The notes beneath the pieces were generated by a model, which was not told where the DNA came from, ran no database searches, and saw nothing but the letters and a program-made list of their open reading frames with translations. Positions 4,505-47,812 of a stretch of DNA of 64,000 nt are shown here, piece after piece. Position numbers and translations under genes: made by a program. This DNA is from Geodermatophilus nigrescens (GTDB lineage: Bacteria; Actinomycetota; Actinomycetes; Mycobacteriales; Geodermatophilaceae): assembly GCF_900129495.1 (NCBI RefSeq), contig NZ_FQVX01000003.1, positions 930,001-994,000 of the forward strand, read 5' to 3'. Every line of letters begins with the position of its first letter. Within the stretch, counting starts at the first letter, position 1.

Positions 4505-5188
4505 GTGCGCCTGGTCATCGCCCGTTGCTCGGTCGACTACATCGGGCGGCTGACCGCCCACCTGCCCCTCGCCACCCGGCTGCTGCTGGTGAAGGCCGAC
4601 GGCTCGGTGTCGGTGCACGCCGACGACCGCGCCTACAAGCCGCTCAACTGGATGACCCCGCCCTGCACCCTCAAGGACGAGCTCGTCGACACCCCCGACG
4701 GCCGGGCCGGCACCTGGACGGTCACCAACAAGGCCGGGGAGCAGCTGGTCATCACGATCGAGGCGGTCGAGCACGACAGCTCGCACGAGCTCGGCGTGGA
4801 CCCGGGCCTGCAGAAGGACGGCGTCGAGGCGGAGCTCCAGCGGCTGCTCGCGCTGCACGTGGAGACCTTCGGCGCCGGCTGGACGCTGGTGCGCCGGGAG
4901 TACCCGACGGCGATCGGCCCGGTCGACCTGCTCTGCCGGGACGCCGACGGCCGCACGGTGGCGGTGGAGATCAAGCGGCGCGGGGAGATCGACGGCGTCG
5001 AGCAGCTCACCCGCTACCTGGAGCTGCTCAACCGCGACCCGCTGCTCGCGCCGGTCAAGGGCGTGTTCGCCGCGCAGGAGATCAAGCCGCAGGCGCGGGT
5101 GCTGGCCGGCGACCGCGGCATCGACTGCGTGACCGTCGACTACGCCGTCCTCAAGGGCACCGACGACCCGACGCAGCGCCTGTTCTGA
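4505..5188 (+). CDS. nucS: Mismatch-specific endonuclease NucS
   Basis: NucS (EndoMS) makes double-strand cuts at DNA mismatches and is the core of non-canonical mismatch repair in Actinobacteria that lack MutS/MutL. The 227-residue protein has the family N-terminal domain ([26 protein letters not shown]) and a C-terminal RecB-like nuclease domain with the D...ExK pattern in [12 protein letters not shown] and VAVEIKRRG. The C-terminal QRLF fits the clamp-binding motif reported for NucS. The GTG at 4505 gives the usual length and follows TACCGT by 8 nt, so the mRNA may be leaderless. The next gene (3HCDH) has its own promoter region. Confidence 0.95.
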
Positions 5189-5190
5189 GC

Positions 5191-5206
5191 CCTACCCAGG
5201 GGTAAC
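5191..5206. promoter_or_regulatory. Variant GTTACC-N4-GGTAAC operator upstream of 3HCDH
   Basis: CCTACC-CAGG-GGTAAC matches 10 of 12 defined positions of the palindrome found perfectly before ccr and nearly perfectly before etfB. The right half is intact and the left half has two changes. It starts just after the nucS stop and lies about 60 bp before the dehydrogenase start. It would be the weakest of the three sites. Confidence 0.5.
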
Positions 5207-5264
5207 CGCCGCCGTCCCGGGTGGGAGACTGCCCCGGTCGGAACGGGTACGGAGGGATGGCAGC

Positions 5265-7046
5265 GTGGCCAGAGAACTGACCGAGGTCGGCGTGGTGGGG
5301 CTCGGCACCATGGGTGCGGGCATCGCCGAGGTCCTGGCCCGCGCGGGCCTGTCGGTGACCGCCGTGGAGATCAGCGAGGACGCACTCGGCCGCGGCCGCG
5401 GGCACGTCGAGCAGTCGACGGACAAGGCGGTCTCGCGCGGCAAGCTGGAGCCGGCGGAGCGCGACGCGATCCTCGGCCGCATCCGGTTCAGCACCTCGCT
5501 GGAGGACCTCGCCGCCGCCGAGCTGGTCGTCGAGGCCGTCCCGGAGCGGATGGAGCTCAAGACCGACCTGTTCGCGAAGCTCGACAAGATCTGCCCGCCG
5601 GACACCATCCTGGCCACGAACACCTCGAGCCTGTCGGTGACCGAGCTGTCGGTGGCCACCGGCCGCCCGAGCAAGGTCATCGGGATGCACTTCTTCAACC
5701 CGGCGCCGGTCATGAAGCTGGTCGAGGTGGTGCGCACGGTGGTCACCGAGCCCTCGGTCATCGAGGACGTCGAGGCCCTGGCCGCCCGCCTCGGCAAGGT
5801 CGACGTGACGATCGGCGACAAGGCCGGCTTCATCGCCAACGCCCTGCTGTTCGGCTACCTCAACCACGCGGTCTCCATGTACGAGAACCGCTACGCCAGC
5901 CGCGAGGACATCGACGCCGCCATGCGGCTGGGCTGCGGCCTGCCCATGGGCCCGCTCGCGCTCATGGACCTCATCGGCATCGACACCGCCTACGAGATCC
6001 TCGACACGATGTACAAGCAGTCGCGCGACCGGCTGCACGCCCCGAGCCCGGTGATCAAGCAGATGATGACCGCGGGCCTGCTGGGCCGGAAGTCCGGCCG
6101 CGGCTTCTACACCTACGCCGGCCGCGACTCCGCCGAGGTCGTCCCCGACGCCGCCACGCCGCCGGCCGGCGGCGCCGCCGAGGGCGCGCGCCCGGTCTCG
6201 CTGGTCGGCGTCGTCGGCTCGGGCACGATGGCCACCGGGATCATCGAGGTCGTCGCCAAGGGCGGCTACGACGTCGTCTTCCAGGCCCGCTCGCCGGAGA
6301 AGGTCGAGGCGGTCCGCACGGCGCTGGCCCGGTCGCTGGACAAGCAGGTGGCCCGCGGGCGCCTGGACGAGGCCGGCCGCGACGAGGTGCTCGGCCGGGT
6401 CCGCGGCACGACGTCGCTCGACGACCTCGCCGACCGCGACCTGGTGATCGAGGCCGTCGTCGAGTCGCTGCCGGTCAAGCAGGCGCTGTTCGCGGCGCTG
6501 GGGGAGATCGCCAAGCCGGGCGCGGTCCTCGCGACGACGACCTCGAGCCTGCCGGTCATCGAGTGCGCCAAGGCCAGCGAGCGCCCCGGCGACGTCGTCG
6601 GCCTGCACTTCTTCAACCCCGCCCCGGTGATGAAGCTCGTCGAGGTGGTCAGCACCATCGCCACCGCCCCCGACGTCGCGGCCACCGCGCACGCGGTCTG
6701 CGCGCAGCTGGGCAAGCACGCGGTCTCCTGCACCGACCGCGCCGGGTTCATCGTCAACGCGCTGCTGTTCCCCTACCTCAACGACGCGGTGAAGATGCTC
6801 GAGGCGCACTACGCGACCGCCGACGACATCGACGCCGCCATGAAGGTCGGCTGCGGCTACCCGATGGGTCCCTTCGAGCTGCTCGACGTCGTCGGCCTCG
6901 ACGTGTCGCTGGCGATCGAGCGGGAGCTCTACACCGAGTTCCGCGAGCCCGGCTTCGCGCCGGCGCCGCTGCTCGAGCACCTGGTCACCGCCGGGTACCT
7001 CGGCCGCAAGACCGGCCGCGGGTTCCGGGACCACTCCGGCCGCTGA
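5265..7046 (+). CDS. Tandem-fused 3-hydroxyacyl-CoA dehydrogenase
   Basis: The 593-residue protein is two complete 3-hydroxybutyryl/3-hydroxyacyl-CoA dehydrogenases in series; single-copy homologues have about 290 residues. Each half has a Rossmann motif (GLGTMGAGIAE, then GSGTMATGIIE), the catalytic-His segment HFFNPAPVMKLVEVV, the Asn segment AGFIANALLF or AGFIVNALLF, and the C-terminal helical domain. Both copies keep their key residues, so both may be active. The enzyme interconverts 3-hydroxyacyl-CoA and 3-ketoacyl-CoA with NAD(P). The GTG start has a GGAGGGA Shine-Dalgarno about 8 nt upstream. An acyl-CoA-type operator candidate lies upstream. Confidence 0.9.
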   Translation: MARELTEVGVVGLGTMGAGIAEVLARAGLSVTAVEISEDALGRGRGHVEQSTDKAVSRGKLEPAERDAILGRIRFSTSLEDLAAAELVVEAVPERMELKTDLFAKLDKICPPDTILATNTSSLSVTELSVATGRPSKVIGMHFFNPAPVMKLVEVVRTVVTEPSVIEDVEALAARLGKVDVTIGDKAGFIANALLFGYLNHAVSMYENRYASREDIDAAMRLGCGLPMGPLALMDLIGIDTAYEILDTMYKQSRDRLHAPSPVIKQMMTAGLLGRKSGRGFYTYAGRDSAEVVPDAATPPAGGAAEGARPVSLVGVVGSGTMATGIIEVVAKGGYDVVFQARSPEKVEAVRTALARSLDKQVARGRLDEAGRDEVLGRVRGTTSLDDLADRDLVIEAVVESLPVKQALFAALGEIAKPGAVLATTTSSLPVIECAKASERPGDVVGLHFFNPAPVMKLVEVVSTIATAPDVAATAHAVCAQLGKHAVSCTDRAGFIVNALLFPYLNDAVKMLEAHYATADDIDAAMKVGCGYPMGPFELLDVVGLDVSLAIERELYTEFREPGFAPAPLLEHLVTAGYLGRKTGRGFRDHSGR

Positions 7047-11704: not shown

Positions 11705-13057
11705 TCACACGCCGCGGAAGCGGTTGATCGCGGCGAGGTGCTTCTCGCGCTTCTCGGCGTCCTTGACGCCGAGGCCCTCCTCGGGGGCGAGGGTCAGCAC
11801 GCCGACCTTGCCCTGGTGGAGGTTGTGGTGGACGTCGTAGGCGGCCTGGCCGACCTCGTCCATGGCGTAGGTCTTCGACAGGGTCGGGTGCACGAGCCCC
11901 TTGTCGATGAGCCGGTTGGCCTCCCACGCCTCCTTGTAGTTGGCGAAGTGCGAGCCGACGATCCGCTTGAGGTTCATCCACAGGTAGCGGTTGTCGTAGG
12001 AGTGCATGTAGCCGCTGGTGGAGGCGCAGGTGACGATCGTGCCGCCCTTCTTGGCGACGTAGACGCTCGCGCCGAAGGTCTCGCGGCCGGGGTGCTCGAA
12101 CACGATGTCGACGTCGTCCCCGCCGGTCAGCTCGCGGATCCGCTTGCCGAAGCGCTGCCACTCCCTGGGGTCCTGGGTCTGCTCGTCCTTCCAGAACCGG
12201 TAGCCCTCGGCGGAGCGGTCGATGACCAGCTCGGCGCCCATCGACCGGACGATGTCGGCCTTCTCGGGGGAGGAGACGACGCAGACGGGGATGGCGCCGC
12301 CGTTGAGCGCCATCTGGGTGGCGTAGGAGCCCAGGCCGCCCGAGGCGCCCCAGATGAGGACGACGTCGCCCTGCTTCATGGCCGCGCCGTTGCGGCTGAC
12401 CAGCTGCCGGTAGGCGGTGGAGTTGACCAGCCCGGGGGCGGCCGCCTCCTCCCACGACAGGTGGGCGGGCTTGGGCATGAGCTGGTTGCTCTTGACCAGC
12501 GCCAGCTCGGCGAGGCCGCCGAAGTTGGTCTCGAAGCCCCAGATCCGCTGCTGCGGGTCCATCATCGTGTCGTCGTGGCCGGCCGGGTCCTCGAGTTCGA
12601 CCGACAGGCAGTGGGCCACGACCTCGTCGCCGGGCTTCCACTTGTTGACGCCCGCGCCCACCTCGAGCACGACGCCGGCGAGGTCGGAGCCGACCACGTG
12701 GTAGGGCAGGTCGTGGCGCTTGGTGAGGTCGTTCTGGCGGCCGTAGCGCTCGAGGAAGCCGAAGGTGCTGACCGGCTCGAAGATCGACGTCCAGACGGTG
12801 TTGTAGTTCACCGACGACGCCATGACGGCGACGATCGCCTCGCCCGGGCCGAGCTCCGGGGTGGCGACCTCCTCCACGTGCAGCGACTTGCGGGGGTCCT
12901 TCTCCTTGGGAGGCAGGCCCGCGAACATGTCCTGCTCGTCCTTGCGGACCAGCACGGCCTTGTAGGACTCCGGCACCGGCAGGCCGCCGATGTCACTGAG
13001 CTGGTCGGCGAGGATGGCGTCCCTGATGGCGTCCACGTGTGTCTCCCGGGTCTTCAT
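11705..13057 (-). CDS. ccr: Crotonyl-CoA carboxylase/reductase
   Basis: Ccr reductively carboxylates crotonyl-CoA with NADPH and CO2 to (2S)-ethylmalonyl-CoA. This is the key step of the ethylmalonyl-CoA pathway for acetate assimilation and a source of extender units. The 450-residue MDR-family protein has the usual length, the family N-terminus (GLPVPESYKAVLVRKDEQDMF), SVNYNTVWTSIFEPVS, the FE pair in IWGFETNFGG and the His in IVGSHFANYKE (residues linked to CO2 binding in studied Ccr), and the NADPH motif GASGGLGSYA. A palindromic operator lies 29 bp upstream, and two hairpins follow the gene. The epimerase gene upstream on the same strand has its own start signals. Confidence 0.95.
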   Translation of the reverse strand: MKTRETHVDAIRDAILADQLSDIGGLPVPESYKAVLVRKDEQDMFAGLPPKEKDPRKSLHVEEVATPELGPGEAIVAVMASSVNYNTVWTSIFEPVSTFGFLERYGRQNDLTKRHDLPYHVVGSDLAGVVLEVGAGVNKWKPGDEVVAHCLSVELEDPAGHDDTMMDPQQRIWGFETNFGGLAELALVKSNQLMPKPAHLSWEEAAAPGLVNSTAYRQLVSRNGAAMKQGDVVLIWGASGGLGSYATQMALNGGAIPVCVVSSPEKADIVRSMGAELVIDRSAEGYRFWKDEQTQDPREWQRFGKRIRELTGGDDVDIVFEHPGRETFGASVYVAKKGGTIVTCASTSGYMHSYDNRYLWMNLKRIVGSHFANYKEAWEANRLIDKGLVHPTLSKTYAMDEVGQAAYDVHHNLHQGKVGVLTLAPEEGLGVKDAEKREKHLAAINRFRGV

Positions 13058-13085: not shown

Positions 13086-13103
13086 AGGTTACCGATGGGT
13101 AAC
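13086..13103. promoter_or_regulatory. Perfect palindromic operator GGTTACC-N4-GGTAACC upstream of ccr
   Basis: The 18-bp site GGTTACCGATGGGTAACC has perfect 7-bp arms and a 4-bp spacer. On the ccr strand its distal half contains TAACCT (complement of 13085-13090), a plausible -10 about 28 nt before the ATG. A repressor bound here would block transcription. Related sites lie at 5191-5206 and 46946-46963. Confidence 0.7.
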
Positions 13104-46945: not shown

Positions 46946-46963
46946 CGTTACCCCGCAGTAACC
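46946..46963. promoter_or_regulatory. GTTACC-N4-AGTAAC operator upstream of etfBA
   Basis: CGTTACCCCGCAGTAACC matches the ccr operator at 11 of the 12 core positions. Its right half holds TAACCT (46959-46964), a plausible -10 about 70 bp before etfB, as in the ccr site. Confidence 0.68.
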
Positions 46964-47032: not shown

Positions 47033-47812
47033 ATGAACATCGTCGTTCTGGTCAAGCAGGTCCCCGACTCCGGCACCCAGCGCTCGCTGGACCCGTCGGA
47101 CAACACCGTCGCCCGCGCCACCGCGGACAACGTCATCAACGAGATCGACGAGTACGCGATCGAGGAGGCACTGCAGGTCCGCGACCGCGAGGGTGGCGAG
47201 GTCACCGTGCTGACCGTCGGTCCCGCCTCGGCCACCGACGCGATCCGCAAGGCCCTGTCGATGGGCGCGGACAAGGCCGTCCACGTGGTGGACGACGCGA
47301 TCCACGGCTCGTGCGCGATCCAGACCTCCGGGGTCCTGGCCGCGGCGCTGCAGCAGATGCAGTACGACCTGGTGCTCACCGGCGCCACGTCCACCGACGG
47401 CCAGGTCGCCGTCATGCCCGCGCTGCTCGCCGAGCGGCTCGGCCTCCCGCAGCTGTCCGGTGCGCAGAAGCTCACCGTCGAGGGCTCGACCGTCAAGGTC
47501 GAGCGGCAGACCGACGGCGGCTTCTGGGCACTCGAGGCGCCGCTGCCGGCGATCGTGTCCACCTGGGACACCATCAACGAGCCGCGCTACCCCTCCTTCA
47601 AGGGGATCATGGCCGCCAAGAAGAAGCCGGTGGAGACCAAGTCCCTGGCCGACCTCGGCGTCGACCCCTCCGCCGTCGGCCTCGCCACGGCGACCAGCCA
47701 GGTCGTGGACTTCTCCGGCCGGCCGCCGAAGGGCGAGGGCGTGAAGGTCACCGACGAGGGCGACGGCGCCGAGAAGCTCGTGGGCTTCCTCGCCGAGCAG
47801 AAGCTCGTCTGA
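47033..47812 (+). CDS. etfB: Electron transfer flavoprotein beta subunit
   Basis: EtfB pairs with EtfA to carry electrons from acyl-CoA dehydrogenases to the membrane quinone pool. The 259-residue protein has the family start MNIVVLVKQVPDSG, NEIDEYAIEEALQV, AMP-binding GPASATDAIRKALSMGADKA and GVLAAALQQMQYDLVLTG. GGAGGT lies 10 nt before the ATG. The leader contains a hairpin at 46981-46997 (7-bp stem, GCG loop) and the operator candidate at 46946-46963. It is the first gene of an etfBA operon. Confidence 0.95.
   Translation: MNIVVLVKQVPDSGTQRSLDPSDNTVARATADNVINEIDEYAIEEALQVRDREGGEVTVLTVGPASATDAIRKALSMGADKAVHVVDDAIHGSCAIQTSGVLAAALQQMQYDLVLTGATSTDGQVAVMPALLAERLGLPQLSGAQKLTVEGSTVKVERQTDGGFWALEAPLPAIVSTWDTINEPRYPSFKGIMAAKKKPVETKSLADLGVDPSAVGLATATSQVVDFSGRPPKGEGVKVTDEGDGAEKLVGFLAEQKLV

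Follow-up and report, generated by a model that had tools for sequence, protein, structure and literature searches.

The window analysed here is a stretch of 64,000 nucleotides from Geodermatophilus nigrescens, in which a short palindrome lies between two genes of the forward strand:

4505..5188, + strand: nucS, encoding endonuclease NucS, the upstream neighbour (NCBIfam NF002876, 401.9 bits, cut-off 252)
5191..5206, + strand: candidate operator of the FasR type, CCTACC-CAGG-GGTAAC (CCTACCCAGGGGTAAC), with one half intact, one half weakened and TACC-N4-GGTA intact
5225..5230, + strand: GAGACT, a -10-like element 18 bp downstream of the operator, a putative promoter element as judged from conservation only
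5265..7046, + strand: candidate target gene, encoding a 593-aa fusion of two 3-hydroxyacyl-CoA (3-hydroxybutyryl-CoA) dehydrogenase modules (NCBIfam NF005875, 680.7 bits, and Pfam)

The palindrome had been predicted from the letters alone as a degenerate operator copy ahead of a tandem dehydrogenase gene, and its sequence and its position at 5191-5206 agree exactly with that prediction. It lies within the 76-bp non-coding gap between nucS and the fused dehydrogenase gene: the nucS stop codon occupies 5186-5188, the site begins 2 nt further on, and 58 nt separate its end from the GTG start codon at 5265. The dehydrogenase is indeed a tandem, with NF005875 matching in two stretches and Pfam PF02737 and PF00725 each doing the same. 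The right half-site, GGTAAC, is complete, the spacer of 4 bp is present, and the left half, CCTACC, shares four of six bases with GTTACC, as originally described. The description as degenerate holds in part: the left half is weakened, but the inner TACC-N4-GGTA is fully symmetric, and the left half deviates in its outer two bases alone. Given this symmetric core, and given that C at position 2 recurs in 7 of 36 sites (the 5191 site counted in), we regard the site as only mildly degenerate. It also contains a core of the FasR type, TAC-CCAGGG-GTA at 5193-5204, comparable to the TAC-N6-GTT and TAC-N6-GTA of the DNA crystallised with FasR.

Two further copies of the palindrome are present in the window, and the 5191 site is kin to the perfect one before ccr, as had been proposed:

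11705..13057, - strand: ccr, the crotonyl-CoA carboxylase/reductase gene (TIGR01751, 607.8 bits, cut-off 378.55)
13088..13103, - strand: perfect operator GTTACC-CATC-GGTAAC, 30 bp before ccr
46947..46962, + strand: operator GTTACC-CCGC-AGTAAC, 70 bp before etfB
47033..47812, + strand: etfB, the electron transfer flavoprotein beta subunit gene (best NCBIfam match NF040731, 170.2 bits, below the cut-off of 445)

Across this genome, sites with zero to two mismatches precede genes for a thiolase, an acyl-CoA synthetase, a 614-aa FadE, a 789-aa iron-sulphur protein and a mutase-family protein, as well as ccr, etfB, the fused dehydrogenase gene and a FasR-like TetR gene. The iron-sulphur protein is read as EtfD-like; its assignment as EtfD, and that of the methylmalonyl-CoA mutase-family protein as ethylmalonyl-CoA mutase, are presumptive and follow from family membership. 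The gene caller set the sites of the mutase and FasR-like genes inside ORFs. Because the relatives' homology begins at ORF residue 17-19, the mutase start was placed after the site, and the ORF that overlaps the site of the FasR-like gene on the other strand was taken as spurious. A site at C2:98449 lies after the stop codon of a thioesterase gene and before the acyl-CoA synthetase gene, and the latter was taken as its target. Two operators 23 bp apart (L007:3978-3993 and L007:4001-4016), one of which also begins CCTAC, stand before the 614-aa FadE gene; in two Mycobacteriaceae genomes (L236, L243) the EtfD-like gene likewise has a pair of operators ahead of it, 25 bp apart.

A symmetric weight matrix was trained on 35 orthologous operators from relatives' genomes, the 5191 site being excluded. 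Within the window it scores the sites at 13088, 46947 and 5191 at 25.6, 16.9 and 15.0, respectively, and the fourth-ranking position at 6.9. The score of 15.0 is near the bottom of the relatives' range (lowest 14.6, next 16.8). In 4 Mb of simulated DNA (second-order Markov), scores of at least 15.0 occur at 0.75 per Mb; therefore, a match within one given 76-bp gap is very unlikely to arise by chance. The 4.74-Mb genome contains 40 places within two mismatches of GTTACCNNNNGGTAAC, two of them perfect and five with one mismatch, against 3 for the reversed control pattern, which is a rough comparison as the dinucleotides differ. In the window alone, 41 places within three mismatches of the 5191 pattern were found versus 27 expected. 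Of the 40 genome places, 23 were read in their gene context; several of the 23 lie in or beside genes without an evident link (among them L012, L015-L017, L019-L023, and window positions 6984 and 30791). The targets recur in varying subsets across eight other family genomes, and relatives' sites beside genes without an evident link include L115, L134, L136, L144, L145 and L158. In four family genomes (L118, L120, L132, L147), an operator precedes an apparent CitE/HpcH-type CoA lyase gene (family tested in L132), possibly a further step of the ethylmalonyl-CoA pathway.

The dehydrogenase is present in 54 of 57 family genomes, and 52 upstream regions were read after G018 (match begins at a contig edge) and G028 (start unreadable) had been dropped. 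The best match to GTTACCNNNNGGTAAC has no mismatch in 10 regions, one in 11, two in 11, three in 3, four in 5 and five in 12; shuffled 200-bp regions reach two mismatches or fewer in 0.3% of cases, the real scan having spanned about 300 bp. Of the 52 orthologous regions, 36 have the core TACYN4RGTA no more than 200 bp upstream of the gene, compared with 0.25% in shuffled DNA, so the position is conserved in the family, in line with the original prediction. By genus handle, the core is found in 4/10 regions of g1 (the window's genus), 3/3 of g2, 1/1 of g3, 9/9 of g4, 0/4 of g5, 5/6 of g6, 0/1 of g7, 0/3 of g8, 1/1 of g9, 8/8 of g11 and 5/6 of g12. When named genomes were scanned and the best 80 loci kept, the core preceded the gene in 4 of 8 Geodermatophilaceae, 6 of 9 Pseudonocardiaceae and 2 of 13 Micromonosporaceae, and in none of the 32 Streptomycetaceae or the remaining 18 loci; inside or near the gene body at these loci it arises by chance in 1 of 480 windows.

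Comparison with relatives thus has a divided outcome: the family keeps the core, but in the window's genus the operator is absent from six of ten genomes, the five nearest on the tree among them, yet GAGACT is kept in five of these six and reads GACACT in the sixth, which inside the genus is the outcome that had been named as refuting the original prediction. The named neighbours by identity include Geodermatophilus obscurus (95%) and G. siccatus (90%). A tree of the regulator locus (DNA of 17 genomes, quick method) groups the host genome with five relatives that lack the site and requires at least three changes, that is, several losses, or a loss and a re-creation. Since the host sits among relatives lacking the site, chance re-creation of the 5191 site is possible. 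The family-wide core and its absence from six of ten genus genomes therefore point to a family-wide operator that is eroding in the window's genus; at 5191 it is eroding, or has been remade, in this lineage.

The likely binding protein is encoded elsewhere in the genome:

C4:784052-784690: FasR-like TetR regulator gene, with a site of its own upstream

Among 23 NCBIfam families, the best match of this TetR protein is FasR (NF053731) at 245 bits, versus 42.8 bits for the Bacillus FadR model. This score misses the FasR equivalog cut-off of 330 bits, which is why we call the regulator only FasR-like. Among solved structures, M. tuberculosis FasR (6o6p, E 8e-57) is the best match, with 95 of 201 aligned residues identical; in the stretch that we take to be the helix-turn-helix (MDDIADRAGVSKPVLYQHF), identity rises to 18 of 19 residues. 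The regulator was found in 56 of 57 family genomes. Upstream of its gene, in 30 family regions, the best site has one mismatch in 12, two in 6, three in 3 and more in 9.

Judged from these sequence comparisons, the palindrome at 5191 is very probably a real but weakened binding site for a fatty-acid-sensing regulator. We further consider it likely that the site is an eroding operator of the FasR-like TetR regulator, part of a beta-oxidation and crotonyl-CoA regulon that is most likely repressed until acyl-CoA builds up. The reading draws on several direct observations: the site itself, the way it is conserved, the palindrome it shares with other genes, the operator found at the regulator gene and the resemblance to mycobacterial FasR DNA (see below). 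The regulator would bind GTTACC-N4-GGTAAC, probably as a dimer, and would control its own gene together with those for the thiolase, the fused 3-hydroxyacyl-CoA dehydrogenase, FadE, the acyl-CoA synthetase, EtfB, the EtfD-like protein, Ccr and the mutase. It would most likely repress by covering the promoter; a build-up of long-chain acyl-CoA would then cause it to leave the DNA and release the breakdown genes. Because one half of the 5191 site is weakened and the nearest relatives have no site, the dehydrogenase gene is probably under looser control here than in the rest of the family.

A less likely but serious alternative is that the operator is already dead in this genome, either left over or re-created by chance and in neither case still bound, and that the dehydrogenase is expressed without it. 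The losses in the genus, including those in the five nearest genomes, would agree with this, as would the weakened left half and the gap to GAGACT, which measures 18 bp in the host and 29 bp in the genus's three other operator-bearing genomes. Nevertheless, TACC-N4-GGTA is intact, and the score remains within the relatives' range, albeit near its bottom, at a level that chance yields just 0.75 times per Mb. An operator that is eroding, and probably still bound by the FasR-like regulator, remains the reading we prefer.

The direction of control is suggested by the position of the operator in the promoter. The distance from the operator to the -10-like element is 9 bp in nine g4 genomes, 18 bp in the host, 21 bp in four g6 genomes and 25-30 bp in the other 22. 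At 5191, the right half-site would fall where the -35 box of a GAGACT promoter is expected. At the regulator gene, the right half of the operator merges into a -10-like TAACAT, 10 bp before the ATG. The distances may cluster near 9, 18-21 and 25-30 bp, about one DNA turn apart, too few of the cases being independent for a firm call. The acyl-CoA synthetase promoter (L006:3933-4016) has the order operator, 29 bp, GAGACT, like many of the relatives' dehydrogenase promoters.

The regulator might instead activate, helping RNA polymerase at this promoter as FasR is reported to do at mycobacterial fas, a reading we consider less likely. It would be in keeping with the description of FasR as an activator of fas-acpS in the available part of PMC7382501, and with the 22 of 36 regions in which 25-30 bp separate the end of the operator from the -10-like element, so that it sits upstream of a -35 position. 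In all nine g4 regions, however, the operator ends within the core promoter, and at the regulator gene it overlaps the -10-like element itself. Given this overlap and the variable spacing, repression by promoter covering fits better than activation.

At the level of the class, a search at E 1e-35 detected the regulator in 129 of 148 genomes, and 84 of the 148 carry the exact palindrome GTTACYNNNNRGTAAC. Exact sites are present in 82 of the 129 genomes with the regulator versus 2 of the 19 without it, absence meaning no match at E 1e-35 (Fisher p 2e-5, kinship ignored). Of 87 sites from the fetched class-wide loci, which are a subset of the sites in the 148 genomes (L235 omitted as a duplicate of L221), 46 lie within 900 bp of a relative of FadE (21), EtfB (13), the EtfD-like protein (8, including two tandem pairs), the thiolase (3) or Ccr (1), one of the 46 being weak (L218, 35% identity). 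The other 41 have no relative of a reference target within 900 bp at E 1e-20. In one Mycobacteriaceae genome (L224), an isocitrate lyase ORF (NF011645, 784 bits) has an exact palindrome some 110 bp ahead of it, which links the palindrome to the glyoxylate shunt.

A similar palindrome is found in the DNA bound by FasR. The 25-mer crystallised with M. tuberculosis FasR, its sequence taken from the accessible portion of PMC7382501, recurs with one to three mismatches in four of nine Mycobacteriaceae genomes searched. In its context this DNA is GTTAC-N6-GTT joined to TAC-N6-GTAAC, two adjoining, imperfect copies of the present palindrome set back to back. In each copy the outer half is full and the inner half weaker, and another GTTAC-N6-GTAG follows downstream. 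Of the four genomes, L276 was tested, and its adjoining gene encodes a FAS I domain (PF22690). The same portion of PMC7382501 describes three inverted repeats in the fas promoter and neighbouring FasR dimers on the crystal DNA.

Binding of the palindrome by a different member of the TetR family rather than by the FasR-like protein is, in our estimation, quite improbable: the FasR-like gene itself has such a site, the regulator and the palindrome co-occur class-wide, and the crystal DNA of mycobacterial FasR, as given in that portion of PMC7382501, matches the palindrome. These points stand against the observation that similar palindromes can be common to TetR regulators of fatty-acid metabolism, and we retain the FasR-like protein as the likely binder. 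Finally, two readings can practically be dismissed, that the match is accidental and that it is a transcription terminator of nucS: the inverted repeat does begin just past the nucS stop codon, but on inspection by eye only 2 nt are left for the loop and no T run follows, the relatives' site lies 74-124 bp before the dehydrogenase start even where no nucS end precedes it (for example in G038), and chance is ruled out by the matrix score with its simulation, the conserved upstream position and the genome-wide excess.

Counting against a FasR-like operator are the six of ten genus genomes without the site, the sub-threshold score of the regulator, the activating role reported for mycobacterial FasR, the three or more mismatches of the regulator's own best site in 12 of 30 regions and the 41 of 87 class-wide sites without targets. 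Taken alone, the 5191 site is a modest case of one regulon member losing its operator. With its sibling sites, it implicates one likely regulator in both beta-oxidation electron transfer (etfB, etfD) and the crotonyl-CoA branch of soil actinobacteria; it suggests that FasR, known from mycobacterial fatty-acid synthesis, is also at work on breakdown genes. In the open-access literature searched, TetR-type mycobacterial FasR is reported only at fas-acpS, and neither this operator copy nor its regulon was found; a term search within the available parts of PMC13083937 and PMC8593149 found no regulator of etfBA or etfD. A broader proposal, to which we give an even chance, is that throughout the Actinomycetes TetR proteins of the FasR type sense acyl-CoA and regulate fatty-acid breakdown, with fadE, etfB and etfD as the older targets, ccr and the mutase as additions of the Geodermatophilaceae, and FAS I activation as an added mycobacterial duty. 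Such control across Actinomycetes was likewise not found in the open-access literature searched. If it were true, one signal (rising acyl-CoA) would act through one protein to turn synthesis down and breakdown up.

Among known systems, mycobacterial FasR (Rv3208) has sites of the same GTTAC-N6-GTAAC palindrome type at the fas-acpS promoter, according to the available parts of PMC7382501 and PMC7652896; the former reports that M. tuberculosis FasR loses DNA binding with long-chain acyl-CoAs of C16 and longer. The two proteins are nearly identical in the presumed helix-turn-helix stretch, and both systems belong to fatty-acid metabolism. The present targets, however, are beta-oxidation and crotonyl-CoA genes and not FAS I, the sites are mostly single, and control is presumed to be repression, in contrast to the activation reported for FasR. 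TetR repressors of the FadR/PsrA type control fad and etf genes of beta-oxidation and are relieved by acyl-CoA, much as we propose here, although their operators differ from this palindrome. CcrR of Methylobacterium is by description a comparable regulator, also of the TetR type and tied to the ethylmalonyl-CoA pathway, but is alphaproteobacterial. The Streptomyces protein named FasR (SCO2386) is presumably unrelated to the TetR-type FasR. The name is also in use in Corynebacterium, besides Streptomyces (PMC7324645, available part). The kind of operator is already known from FasR, and the copy at 5191 is a further one.
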